Made by a program: the position numbers and the translations under genes. A stretch of 33,307 bases of DNA from Candidatus Kapaibacterium sp. (GTDB taxonomy: Bacteria > Bacteroidota > Ignavibacteria > Kapaibacteriales > Kapaibacteriaceae), in the NCBI GenBank assembly GCA_030833725.1, contig JAURGP010000022.1, positions 1 through 33,307 on the forward strand, in the 5' to 3' direction. The notes under the pieces were generated by a model, which did no database searches, was not told the origin of the DNA, and saw nothing but the letters and a program-made list of their open reading frames with translations. This document shows, piece after piece, positions 2,149-6,145 of the stretch (positions within the stretch are counted from its first letter, which is position 1; the number at the start of each line of letters is the position of its first letter).

Positions 2149-4119
2149 TCACAGCAATGGCCACAGTACAACGCCAATCAGGATGACGATACCTACAACC
2201 ATCAGGACGGCATAATTCTGAGCGATGCCGCTCTGTAGTTTACGCAAGACTCCTGCTACTGCTCCAACCGTGCTCGCAGAACCGTTTACAACGCCATCTA
2301 CAATCTTGACGTCGAAGATCTTCCAGAGGAAGTCACGCGAAAGCGCCAGAATCGGACCAACTACAGCCAGGTGGTAGATTTCATCAACGTACCACTTGTT
2401 CCACAGGAGCTTGTACGCTGCCGAGAACTTCGCACCCAAGGCCGAAGCACGCTCAGTACCATCCTTGTAGAGGTTCCGTGCCAAGAAAACACCTGCCAGG
2501 GCAATTGTGACTGAACCCGCCATCAGGAGGATCTCCGTCGTGGGGTCCATCGTTACGCTGCCCATGCCCAGTGTTTGCACGCCGGCATCCATAATGGGAT
2601 GCAGCCACGATTCCAGCAGATTGGGGATGTGCAAGGGATGACCAAGCAAATGCGGCACACCCAGGAAGCCCCCTACCGCCGACAGCACCGCCAGAACAAT
2701 CAACGGAATGGTCATCGTGGCTGGCGATTCATGCGGATGCACATGATGATGGTCGAATCGCTCCTTGCCATGGAAGGTCAAGGCCGTCAATCGCCACATG
2801 TAGAAGGCCGTGAAGAAGGCCGCTAGGGCACCAACAGCCCACAATACCGGGCTGCCATAATAGAAACTGAAGAGCAGGATCTCATCCTTGGAAAAGAATC
2901 CCGAGAACAGTGGGATTCCCGAAATAGCCAGCGTACCAATGATCCACGTCCGATACGTAATCGGCATGTGCTTGGCCAGACCGCCCATTTTCTGAATGTC
3001 CTGTTCCTCGTGCATGCCGTGGATCACCGAACCCGAGCCAAGGAACAACAGTGCCTTGAAGAAGGCGTGCGTCATAACGTGGAACACTGCGATGGTGAAG
3101 GCCCCTACACCCAGGGCGGTGAACATGAAGCCGAGCTGTGAAACGGTAGAGTAGGCCAAAACCTTCTTGATGTCGTTTTGTACCAATCCCACGGTACCGG
3201 CGATCAGTGCCGTCGTGATACCGATGCCCGTCACAACGGCCATCGTGGTGGGCGACATGGCAAACAGAACATTGGTGCGGGCAATCAAGTAGATGCCCGA
3301 CGTCACCATCGTGGCAGCGTGGATCAGCGCCGATACCGGCGTTGGACCCGCCATGGCGTCTGGCAGCCACACACCAAGCGGAATCTGCGCACTCTTGCCG
3401 GTTGCGCCCAAGAACAATGCCAGGGTGATGATCGTGACGGTAGCGTCCCCCACCCCCCATGCACTCTGTGCTCCTGCAGTGATTGCATCGTAGTTCAACG
3501 TACCGAATTGCTGGAATAGCAAAAACATTGCTACCAGTACGCCGAAGTCACCGATGCGATTCACAATGAAGGCCTTCTTGGCAGCATCGCCCGTCCAGAC
3601 GATGTTGGTACCGTCGAACTTGCGGTTGTACCAGAATCCGATCAGCAGGTACGAGGCCAAGCCCACACCTTCCCATCCAAGGAAGGTCAGCAACAGGTTG
3701 TTCGCCAGAACCAGGTTCAACATCATGAATACGAACAGGTTCAGGTAGGCGAAGAACCGGAAGAAACTCTTGTCTCCATGCATGTAACCGATCGAGTACA
3801 CATGGATCAGGAAGCCGATACCGGTAATGATCAGCGCAAACAGAATCGACAACTGGTCGATCTTGTAGGCGATATCTACCGAGAACGAACCCGTGGCAAT
3901 CCAGGTATACACGGTCGACGTAAATGAGCGCGACTCAGCCGGCGCTCCCAGCATCTGCACAAACAGCGACACGGCCACGAGAAAGGAGAAGAATACGGCA
4001 CCGCTGCCGATCGCTCCAATCAGCTTCTCGCTTTTGATGCGGGTGCCGAACAGTCCAATGATGGCAAAGCCAATCAAGGGGAACAGTACAATCAGTCCTG
4101 GATGCAGTAGGGGGCTCAT
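2149..4119 (-). CDS. nuoL: NADH-quinone oxidoreductase subunit L
   Basis: 656 residues, typical NuoL length. It is an antiporter-like proton-pumping subunit of complex I in the inner membrane. Seen are the TM5 glutamate in FLGWEGVG (Glu150), the TM7 lysine in GATGKSAQIPLG (Lys242), the hallmark GPTPVSALIHAATMV with His267, about 15-16 membrane segments, and the C-terminal WNKWYVDEIY segment leading to the lateral helix and a last membrane helix. The C-terminus and length argue for true NuoL rather than the related NuoM, MrpA or DabB. The start ATG overlaps the amidotransferase stop (ATGA). No other nuo gene lies on either side, so it is detached from the usual nuoA-N operon. Two AGCCCCCTA motifs fall in it, one covering codons 2-4. 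Confidence 0.95.
   Translation of the reverse strand: MSPLLHPGLIVLFPLIGFAIIGLFGTRIKSEKLIGAIGSGAVFFSFLVAVSLFVQMLGAPAESRSFTSTVYTWIATGSFSVDIAYKIDQLSILFALIITGIGFLIHVYSIGYMHGDKSFFRFFAYLNLFVFMMLNLVLANNLLLTFLGWEGVGLASYLLIGFWYNRKFDGTNIVWTGDAAKKAFIVNRIGDFGVLVAMFLLFQQFGTLNYDAITAGAQSAWGVGDATVTIITLALFLGATGKSAQIPLGVWLPDAMAGPTPVSALIHAATMVTSGIYLIARTNVLFAMSPTTMAVVTGIGITTALIAGTVGLVQNDIKKVLAYSTVSQLGFMFTALGVGAFTIAVFHVMTHAFFKALLFLGSGSVIHGMHEEQDIQKMGGLAKHMPITYRTWIIGTLAISGIPLFSGFFSKDEILLFSFYYGSPVLWAVGALAAFFTAFYMWRLTALTFHGKERFDHHHVHPHESPATMTIPLIVLAVLSAVGGFLGVPHLLGHPLHIPNLLESWLHPIMDAGVQTLGMGSVTMDPTTEILLMAGSVTIALAGVFLARNLYKDGTERASALGAKFSAAYKLLWNKWYVDEIYHLAVVGPILALSRDFLWKIFDVKIVDGVVNGSASTVGAVAGVLRKLQSGIAQNYAVLMVVGIVILIGVVLWPLL
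2667..2675 (+). repeat. AGCCCCCTA motif, copy 1
   Basis: Inside nuoL. On the coding strand it reads as V-G-G-F codons. Confidence 0.8.
4108..4116 (-). repeat. AGCCCCCTA motif, copy 2
   Basis: Covers codons 2-4 of nuoL (S-P-L), immediately after its ATG, and touches the end of the amidotransferase stop. Confidence 0.8.
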
Positions 4120-5024
4120 CCGATCTCCGGTGCAATCGATTCAAAGTCTAGTTTCTCAACATCCATCATCACGTTACGGAACGAAATCCGCATCGTCTCG
4201 TCGATAATCATCATGGCATTCCGCTCCATCTTCATCCAGTCTGATCGGCGCGCTGTAAAAGGTTCCGAGGCTAGAACAATTGCCGACGGTTTCCCAAATG
4301 TAGGCTCCATTACGCAGACTTCGCCGCGACAATGATACTCCCGGCCATGCATGTAGTACAGTGAAGCCGGTTGCACGTTTGGATTGGTTGTGTAGCGGAC
4401 AGCCACCATGCAGGTGCCATTTGTAACGGCAAGGTTTAGATAGGAATGCTGGCGGATGTCGTGTTCGATCATGAGCTCGCTCAGATCCGAGAACATCATT
4501 TCCATGGCATGAACCAGTTCTTCGCAGCTCACTGTCCCGAACGGATCAGCAATATGGTTCAACAACAGCCCGAACAGGTGTTCAGAGTCTGTCGATCCCT
4601 GAATTGCGTCGTAGGCCTGGTCGTTCAACCGGCGCAGGAGCTTCCGACGCATATTCTTGAAGCCCCCTAACACCCCGTTGTGCATGAACATCAGTTGACC
4701 GCACCAGAAGGGATGCGAGTTGACCTCTTCAATCCCCAGTCCGGGCGAAGCCGCCCGGACGTGGGCAAACATGCAGGGTGAATAAATCTTCCGTGCCAGG
4801 TTCCGAAGGTTCTGGTCCCCCCAGGCGGGCTTGATACTGCGGAAGACGCAGGGCTCGTTGTCGATCTGTGGATCATACCATCCGATACCGAATCCATCAC
4901 CGTTGACGGATACGGACATCTCACCCGCATTCATGGTCTGTGCTGTTACCAACGAAAACTTTGGCCGATACAGCAAGTCATCTGCAAGAACGGGTGGACC
5001 GATGTAGGCCACAAAACGACACAT
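4116..5024 (-). CDS. Class II glutamine amidotransferase (YafJ-like)
   Basis: 302 residues with an N-terminal nucleophile (Ntn) hydrolase domain. Cys2 (MCRFVAY) becomes N-terminal after Met removal and would attack glutamine to release ammonia. Other family marks are NGDGFGIGWY (41-50), HVRAAS (88-93), NSHPF and the MHNG loop (about 102-117), and STDSE (144-148). There is no second synthase domain, so it belongs to the stand-alone YafJ/EgtC/DUG3-type group, whose substrates vary. Dipeptide or gamma-glutamyl amide hydrolysis is possible but not shown. It lies 20 bases after the CADD-like gene and overlaps nuoL by four bases, so the three are probably co-transcribed. Ammonia supply for p-aminobenzoate synthesis by its neighbour is unlikely, because CADD enzymes do not use glutamine. 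Confidence 0.88.
   Translation of the reverse strand: MCRFVAYIGPPVLADDLLYRPKFSLVTAQTMNAGEMSVSVNGDGFGIGWYDPQIDNEPCVFRSIKPAWGDQNLRNLARKIYSPCMFAHVRAASPGLGIEEVNSHPFWCGQLMFMHNGVLGGFKNMRRKLLRRLNDQAYDAIQGSTDSEHLFGLLLNHIADPFGTVSCEELVHAMEMMFSDLSELMIEHDIRQHSYLNLAVTNGTCMVAVRYTTNPNVQPASLYYMHGREYHCRGEVCVMEPTFGKPSAIVLASEPFTARRSDWMKMERNAMMIIDETMRISFRNVMMDVEKLDFESIAPEIG
4661..4669 (+). repeat. AGCCCCCTA motif, copy 3
   Basis: Inside the amidotransferase gene, read as L-G-G-F. Confidence 0.8.
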
Positions 5025-5044: not shown

Positions 5045-5737
5045 TTAGTTCAGGGCAGCTTTTTCAGCACACCAGGTGTTGTAGACGCCATCCAGCAGCA
5101 GGTTGAAGGCATCAGCTGCTTCGCGTGCGGAATCCAGCGCGGCCTGCTTCTGCTCATCGGTCTGGCACAGACGAGCCAGTGCATCACGTGTTACCGTGCG
5201 GTGAATCTCGTCGGCATGCTCGTGTACCTGGAAGAACGTGAGGGCATCGGTCGTGTCGAGGTTGTAGAACTTCTTCAGCCCTTCAATCTTGGTGGTCGAG
5301 ATCTCAGGGATCTGCGACTCGTAGGCATACAGCGCAGCGATACCCTCGGCAGGATTGTCCCTACCGGCAAGCTCCTTGAGGATATGCACCGAAGCCCGGG
5401 TGTGCGACAGGTACTTGCGGTTCTTCATCTCGTCGCGCGACACTCCGAGAGCGTCAGCAAAACGCAGCCACAGTTCGGGATGGTTGTCGGCACCCTGCTC
5501 TTCTTCGACAAGGTTTTCCAACAGCATCTGGCGGATGTCCATGTCCGTACACTTCGAGTGCGTTGCACTGACGTACGTTGGGAAGTGATGAACCTGGTGG
5601 TAGTACTCTTTTGCATACTCGCGGAGCATGTCCACCGACAAAGCGCCTTCATTCCACATTTGGTAGAACGGGTGCTGAAGCATGTGGCGTTCTGCAATAA
5701 TCGCGTCGAGCTGCTGGAGGAATTCTTCGGTCGTCAT
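5045..5737 (-). CDS. CADD-family p-aminobenzoate synthase (TenA/PqqC fold, di-metal)
   Basis: 230 residues from ATG 5737 (AGGGA nine bases upstream). The longer open frame to 6022 is rejected because it runs through the divergent clpS. The all-helical haem-oxygenase-like fold matches the CADD folate-related family. Every key residue of Chlamydia CADD aligns with a constant offset of two: metal ligands Glu79, His86, Glu140, His172, Asp176 and His179; the sacrificial tyrosine Tyr25 (HPFY), Tyr41, and Lys150. In the characterised enzyme, the benzene ring of p-aminobenzoate comes from its own tyrosine and the amino group is attributed to its lysine. The residue numbers for Chlamydia are from memory. 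The likely role is bypass of PabABC in folate synthesis. It is divergent from clpS and followed by the amidotransferase. Confidence 0.88.
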   Translation of the reverse strand: MTTEEFLQQLDAIIAERHMLQHPFYQMWNEGALSVDMLREYAKEYYHQVHHFPTYVSATHSKCTDMDIRQMLLENLVEEEQGADNHPELWLRFADALGVSRDEMKNRKYLSHTRASVHILKELAGRDNPAEGIAALYAYESQIPEISTTKIEGLKKFYNLDTTDALTFFQVHEHADEIHRTVTRDALARLCQTDEQKQAALDSAREAADAFNLLLDGVYNTWCAEKAALN

Positions 5738-5857: not shown

Positions 5858-6145
5858 ATGATGAACAACTACCCTGAATACGTTCCTGAAGAGGAATCCG
5901 ACGTCCTTGAGCAGGTGGCTCTGGCGGCCAAGGTGATCCTCTACAACGACGAAGACCACACGTTCGATGAAGTGATCACACAGATCATCCGCGCTACGGG
6001 ATGTTCCGCCGACACCGCTCATTCCCTTACCCTAGAAGTGCACCACCGCGGTAAAGCCATGGTGTTTGAAGGTCCCTTGGAGGGCTGCCTCCGCGTGTCG
6101 GCAATTCTGGAAGAGATTTCCCTACATACCCAGATCGAGTGGTAG
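5858..6145 (+). CDS. clpS: ATP-dependent Clp protease adaptor ClpS
   Basis: 95 residues, and the only recognised gene on the plus strand. ClpS docks on the ClpA/ClpC N-domain and delivers N-degron substrates (Leu, Phe, Tyr, Trp at the N-terminus) to ClpP. Seen are [15 protein letters not shown] (26-40) with Asn30 and Asp31, which bind the substrate alpha-amino group, and the VHHRGKA segment (61-67) with the conserved histidine. Two adjacent ATGs (5858 and 5861) can both serve as start. An open frame continues upstream to 5816 but adds non-conserved residues. No clpA or clpC is adjacent. Its TAG stop is the first three bases of a TAGGGGGCT motif. The convergent TPR lipoprotein gene ends five bases away, with no room for a normal terminator. 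Confidence 0.92.

Follow-up and report, generated by a model that had tools for sequence, protein, structure and literature searches.

A candidate self-sacrificing p-aminobenzoate synthase that apparently stands in for the chorismate-dependent route in a Kapabacteria lineage

Results

The locus

The window (i.e. the whole 33,307-nucleotide stretch of contig JAURGP010000022.1 from Candidatus Kapaibacterium sp. that was analysed) carries a CADD-type gene flanked by genes for an amidotransferase and a ClpS homologue (Table 1). Translation showed that the CADD gene is a single uninterrupted frame of 230 residues with an ATG start and no internal stops. No folate gene adjoins it within the window. 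NuoL, a subunit of the quinone-dependent complex I, is encoded at 2149-4119 (-), in a genome that gave no chorismate synthase match.

Table 1. Features of the CADD locus and of related loci (window coordinates unless a locus is named)
Feature	Position	Strand	Basis or remark
Class II glutamine amidotransferase, EgtC-like	4116..5024	-	PF13230, 60 bits; 20 bases downstream of CADD
Candidate self-sacrificing p-aminobenzoate (pABA) synthase, CADD/PabS type, 230 aa	5045..5737	-	TIGR04305, phmmer, AlphaFold model; coordinates include stop codon
Phe168 codon, metal-selectivity position (CADD Tyr170, NePabS Phe177)	5234..5236	-	Alignment
Lys150 codon, predicted amino donor (CADD Lys152, NePabS Lys159)	5288..5290	-	TTKIEG motif
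Tyr139 codon, partner of Phe168 (CADD Tyr141, NePabS Phe148)	5321-5323	-	Alignment
Tyr41 codon, counterpart of a residue reported as essential in NePabS (PMC11965152, accessible part)	5615..5617	-	Translation, alignment
Tyr25 codon, predicted sacrificial tyrosine (CADD Tyr27, NePabS Tyr25)	5663..5665	-	HPFY motif
ClpS adaptor homologue, divergent from CADD gene	5858..6145	+	PF02617, 54 bits; sole ClpS match in genome
Compact CADD relatives, 185 residues, sister family	L092:6605-7162; L093:347-901; L278-L287	+ (L092); - (L093)	

Family membership and predicted fold

The window protein matched the family model TIGR04305 at 288 bits, against a curated cut-off of 200 (E 4e-86), and is therefore a member of this family. 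A phmmer comparison with CT610/CADD of C. trachomatis (PDB 1rcw) gave E 2e-47, and these two E values together exclude a chance match. The PqqC model TIGR02111 reached 67 bits (cut-off 240) and the BesC model 43 bits (cut-off 500). The closest solved structures by sequence were 9pj4 and 8va9 (both labelled 4-aminobenzoate synthase) and 1rcw, with 9pj4 as the best match.

The AlphaFold model (mean pLDDT 95.5) has a heme-oxygenase-like fold with CADD as its nearest relative. It overlaid on 1rcw with Z 32.4 and an rmsd of 1.1 Å over 214 aligned residues. The top three matches were all CADD structures, and the next family was PqqC at Z 27.6; the Foldseek TM-score of the model, by target, was 0.96. 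The absence of 9pj4 from the re-alignment against the PDB is no sign of a difference, since that list was made of Foldseek-ranked entries.

Active-site residues and their conservation

From the residue numbers of the CADD metal ligands, we located Glu79, His86, Glu140, His172, Asp176 and His179 in the aligned window protein. The offset to 1rcw was two throughout the named residues, and the sole gap there fell after residue 190. The first-pass annotation had placed all six di-metal ligands, Tyr25, Tyr41 and Lys150 at this constant offset from the Chlamydia enzyme, and every one of them could be read in the translation and alignment. The accessible part of PMC11965152 reports that CADD, whose ligands are three histidines and three carboxylates, draws on two of its own residues, Tyr27 and Lys152, to make pABA. 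It also describes NePabS of Nitrosomonas europaea, a biochemically characterised enzyme that uses Tyr25 and Lys159 and requires Tyr41. The window protein has the same three-plus-three ligand set, together with the sacrificial tyrosine (Y25), the donor lysine (K150) and the equivalent of the essential tyrosine (Y41).

We observed that Tyr25, Tyr41, Lys150 and Trp90 were the same in all 96 rows of an alignment. The alignment comprised P0001, 15 loci from the sampled genomes (L094 gave no match) and 80 named loci; many rows are near-identical and some are one record entered twice. One of the two search seeds included Tyr25, which qualifies its invariance; Lys150 lay in neither seed. Viral contigs scanned with the window CADD protein yielded no relatives.

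Metal choice in this family is reportedly set by two positions, Tyr141/Tyr170 in CADD giving Mn/Fe and Phe148/Phe177 in NePabS giving Fe/Fe, and the NePabS F148Y variant had similar activity with both metal sets (PMC11965152, accessible part). In the alignment the window protein has Tyr139/Phe168, i.e. the same pair as this cambialistic (metal-promiscuous) variant. Tyr occupied position 139 in 94 of the 96 rows, a count biased by the search seed that began at Tyr139, and Phe occupied position 168, which lay in no seed, in 93 of 96. The window protein is in this respect a natural Tyr/Phe hybrid in which metal choice and radical transfer could be studied.

pABA and chorismate genes in the window genome

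The window genome is a 1.98 Mb MAG of 92 contigs (98.4% complete). A full pabABC set had been named in the first-pass annotation as the genomic half of what would speak against a pABA synthase, and a search for pabA, pabB and pabC had been proposed. We ran this search with profiles, and none of the three was found in the genome, so that half of the counter-evidence is missing. There was no match to PF00425, to which PabB, TrpE and isochorismate synthase belong. Four matches to PabA/TrpG (TIGR00566) did not exceed 65 bits against a cut-off of 121, and both matches to PF01063 (class IV aminotransferases, searched for PabC) were IlvE over its cut-off. Chorismate synthase (PF01264) likewise gave no match in the profile search. 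FolP, on the other hand, was recovered as a dihydropteroate synthase equivalog at 298 bits. Dihydropteroate synthase needs pABA. With this enzyme present and pabABC absent, the pABA-consuming step is retained and the usual pABA-producing steps are gone.

Distribution among relatives

CADD matches over the cut-off were found in 14 of 198 sampled genomes of the phylum: the window genome itself, 12 members of the same order (from three families) and the distant G164. G066 gave a 22-bit match in this sample. These 14 were set in a panel of 27 genomes with a non-random comparison group of 13, i.e. three genomes with sub-cut-off matches, one other listed member of the order and nine hand-picked members of the class. 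PF00425 was present in none of the 14 CADD genomes vs 11 of the 13 comparison genomes (Fisher p 6e-6, uncorrected for kinship; the 14 are mostly one clade, so that few independent events are involved). Chorismate synthase was found in one CADD genome (G164) vs 12 comparison genomes, and TrpG/PabA passed its cut-off in none vs 10. For each of these three profiles, the named control genomes were positive in 14 of 14 cases. Pterin-binding matches (dihydropteroate synthase family) were present in all 27 genomes, including every one that lacked PF00425.

The profile pattern of the window genome recurred in the 12 sampled CADD-bearing order-mates. Since they have this pattern in common, folate synthesis in a Kapabacteria lineage seems to do without chorismate. 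According to the accessible part of PMC6338057, MAGs of Kapabacteria may lack the ability to synthesise Phe, Tyr and Trp, in line with the absence of chorismate synthase.

Named records led to 50 further CADD genomes, of which 31 lacked PF00425. These represent 50 of 80 loci, closely related Kapabacteria and Okeania/Trichodesmium rows having been left out. In our own grouping, PF00425 was absent from 21 of 22 Kapabacteria-type genomes, 0 of 10 cyanobacteria and 10 of 18 others. G214, of Kapabacteria type, carried CADD together with two chorismate-binding matches. As all ten cyanobacteria had both CADD and chorismate-binding enzymes, CADD is not always tied to the loss of PF00425.

The cyanobacterial CADD proteins (Okeania, Trichodesmium, Spirulina and others; L167-L176, L178-L183, L187) were 61-66% identical to the window CADD. 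Two copies were seen in Okeania sp. SIO2C9 (L171, L173) and in Trichodesmium GBRTRLIN201 (L172, L183). No hint of a pathway came from ten proteins encoded next to cyanobacterial CADD genes and next to one CADD gene of Kapabacteria type. Kapabacteria-like CADD loci also occurred in records titled Bradyrhizobiaceae (L129), Melioribacter roseus (L148) and Acidobacteria (L177), where wrong titles or mixed bins are possible.

The neighbouring genes

PabA is a class I amidotransferase. The amidotransferase beside CADD matched class II models only and the window contig (C14) had no TIGR00566 match, so we rejected its identification as PabA. Its score as EgtC (TIGR03442, 184 bits) was under the cut-off of 218.65. 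The gene was found in 13 of 13 genomes of the families f1 to f3, the other 12 copies being 67-82% identical to that of the window, and it follows CADD in all sampled genomes of f1 (nine) and f2 (three). In G043 both genes are kept with the amidotransferase far from CADD. G164 carries CADD and no amidotransferase, and G004 carries a 42% identical amidotransferase relative and no CADD. Over the named loci, the amidotransferase adjoined CADD in 33 of 80 and did not in 47.

The pairing had been called odd in the first-pass annotation. The gene is indeed adjacent, and the arrangement is a gene order of the lineage (33 of 80 loci) that is broken in G043. Adjacency is for these reasons no evidence for a joint reaction.

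In 32 of 80 loci the ClpS gene lies on the other side of the gap upstream of CADD, divergently oriented, and some of these loci share none of the other neighbours that were tested. Twelve of the 32 lack an adjoining amidotransferase, among them L184, L185 and L188 (CADD identity 61-65%). Of 32 genomes, 31 had a single ClpS match, and the gene also occurred where CADD is absent. Our first idea, that ClpS is a dedicated partner of CADD, was dropped on these grounds: as the sole match in its genome, and one that occurs without CADD, it looks like a housekeeping adaptor. As a single reaction would use up a CADD molecule, clearance via ClpS is worth considering, as an idea only.

Compact relatives in a sister family

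G109 and G160, from a fourth family of the order, lack PF00425 and gave weak CADD matches of 72-74 bits, which are proteins of 185 residues. These compact proteins keep the equivalents of HPFY, Tyr41, Trp90 and Lys150 and a matching ligand set in the alignment. They lack the first helix, have E-x2-H where the window type has E-x6-H, and show Phe/Tyr instead of the window protein's Tyr/Phe at the two positions of metal selectivity.

Compact member 1 scored 75 bits with TIGR04305 (cut-off 200) and is thus outside the family by this measure. The ten compact members scanned nevertheless matched no NCBIfam family other than TIGR04305 (best E 8e-23), with scores far below its cut-off. When solved structures were searched with a ten-member profile, all entries found were CADD or 4-aminobenzoate synthase. 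The compact model (pLDDT 94.8) overlaid best on CADD, with Z 23.7 vs 19.1 for the next family. In a tree of 90 rows, from which 12 loci had been removed as duplicates of named records and which 8 of the 13 rows for compact proteins plus L288 had entered, the seven compact rows formed one supported clade (100/99) on a long branch.

Within the sister family, 14 of 54 genomes carried a compact or related gene, some as fragments at contig ends; the 14 include G283, whose protein is different, longer and of 31% identity. PF00425 was found in 17 of the 54 and was classified from the locus as PabB in 12 and isochorismate synthase in 5. No genome combined PabB with a compact or related gene, where about three would be expected (Fisher p 0.024, uncorrected for kinship). 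Both states occur in genus g6, with the gene in G109 and G267 and PabB in G266. Neither gene was present in 28 of 54 genomes, which weakens the argument that pABA synthesis is indispensable throughout the family. We predict that the compact form is active as a pABA synthase. If so, it would be a smaller scaffold in which to study an enzyme that excises its own tyrosine.

The protein of G283 (L288:5636-6166, +) is a divergent third CADD-like form, with 136 bits for TIGR04305 (cut-off 200). It keeps HPFY and SKIDG, with Tyr139 replaced by Val and with an E-x2-H motif. We also considered folE as a shared neighbour of the compact gene, and dropped it when tblastn of FolE matched at 1 of 13 loci only.

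Discussion

We consider it very probable that the product of the CADD gene is a heme-oxygenase-like dimetal enzyme which turns over only once and provides the pABA for folate, replacing a lost chorismate-to-pABA branch. Its functional reading as a pABA synthase is well supported by the genome evidence, and the self-sacrificing chemistry would follow by analogy with CADD and NePabS. In the proposed sequence of events, O2 would be activated at a dimetal centre (Fe/Fe or Mn/Fe) in its reduced state, bound by the six ligands, and oxidising equivalents would pass to Tyr25 via aromatic residues. The side chain of Tyr25 would then be severed from the backbone, leaving glycine behind, and the freed ring would be oxidised to benzoate and aminated from Lys150. 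The cost would be one protein per pABA. In the Kapabacteria lineage CADD would in this way stand in for the entire chorismate-to-pABA branch. With that branch apparently lost along with chorismate synthase, the ring would derive from tyrosine incorporated into protein, and we infer that this tyrosine is probably taken up from outside.

A dimetal oxidase of the CADD fold that acts on some other substrate (PqqC-, BesC- or UndA-like), in cells that import pABA or folate, would also fit parts of these results. HDO enzymes have the fold and the metal-site layout in common, PqqC and HrmI likewise reach Z 26-28 against the window model, and cyanobacteria keep CADD alongside chorismate-binding enzymes. 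We give this only a small probability, since the window protein passes TIGR04305 and falls under the PqqC and BesC cut-offs, since the self-sacrifice residues Tyr25 and Lys150 are invariant in all 96 rows, and since matches to the pABA-requiring dihydropteroate synthase family occur throughout the panel. That pabABC lie in the portion of the genome which the MAG does not cover, with CADD as a supplement, is extremely unlikely. The assembly is indeed in 92 contigs and short of complete, but PF00425 is absent from 12 of 12 sampled CADD order-mates, two of them single-contig genomes (G059 and G043, both with CADD), and from nearly all of the named Kapabacteria-type genomes (21/22).

The amidotransferase could in principle release ammonia from glutamine, so that the ring derived from tyrosine is aminated while Lys150 is spared or CADD is repaired. 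Of the 20 loci with both neighbours of CADD, 19 have a gap of 9-35 bases between the two genes and L149 has one of 107, and the amidotransferase is conserved throughout f1 to f3. However, CADD and NePabS reportedly take the amine from a lysine (PMC11965152, accessible part), and this lysine is invariant here. The separation in G043, the G004 relative without CADD, the lone CADD of G164 and the unpaired majority of named loci speak against joint action as well, and NuoL is linked about equally tightly in most of these loci. Having weighed a functional pairing on this evidence, we rate it very low.

The CADD clade has apparently lost the usual pABA route and carries a single-use enzyme that probably derives pABA from a tyrosine of its own. 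A wider picture can be offered tentatively, and we lean slightly against all of it holding together: an environmental clade without chorismate would draw the folate ring from the tyrosine of a throw-away protein, with supply set by the translation of one gene; the compact form of the sister family (no first helix, E-x2-H) would replace PabB; and spent enzyme would be cleared via ClpS.

The kind of enzyme and its occurrence outside Chlamydia are already known. The first-pass annotation had stressed presence outside Chlamydia, and this is less striking than it seemed, since NePabS is proven and putative synthases have been named in Wolbachia, Rickettsia, Chloroflexi and Sphingomonas (PMC11965152; Rickettsia also PMC5615194; both in their accessible parts). 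With such carriers published, CADD outside Chlamydia is expected. In the literature searched, most subscription papers being outside its scope, we found neither a CADD-type pABA synthase in Kapabacteria nor the compact form. What is new is the apparent wholesale replacement of the usual pABA route in the Kapabacteria lineage. Added to this are a lineage in which dihydropteroate synthase and CADD are retained and chorismate synthase and pabABC are absent, the Tyr/Phe hybrid and the compact sister form. If the reading is true, self-sacrificing pABA synthesis would be a main folate route in an uncultured environmental lineage; the route would not be confined to intracellular parasites or an ammonia oxidiser, and would be tied to the loss of chorismate synthase. 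Such bacteria would be expected to be independent of the shikimate pathway for folate and still to require dihydropteroate synthase.

The canonical PabA/PabB/PabC route leads to the same product from chorismate and glutamine, and all three profile searches for it were negative in the window genome. The nearest published parallel is fol_rel_CADD ('frC') of Rickettsia, in genomes without PabABC and chorismate synthesis; these, in contrast, are intracellular parasites in which the gene is degraded in almost all and no folate pathway is complete (PMC5615194, accessible part), whereas the window gene is intact and dihydropteroate synthase is retained. CADD/CT610 (1rcw, 8va9) is 38% identical to the window protein and has the ligands, the sacrificial Tyr and Lys and the Tyr at position 141 in common with it. 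It differs in having Tyr170 for Phe168, and the window lineage is environmental, with no folate cluster.

The likeness to NePabS (NE1434) extends to an environmental host, the ligand pattern, the matching Tyr25, Tyr41 and donor Lys, the Phe at the CADD Tyr170 position and a gene lying apart from the core folate genes. The differences are Phe148 vs Tyr139, a loop of about ten residues in NePabS that is missing from the window CADD, and a neighbour published as a glyA-like gene (PMC11965152, accessible part). We also noted that PDB 9pj4, labelled 4-aminobenzoate synthase, fits the residue numbers of NePabS.
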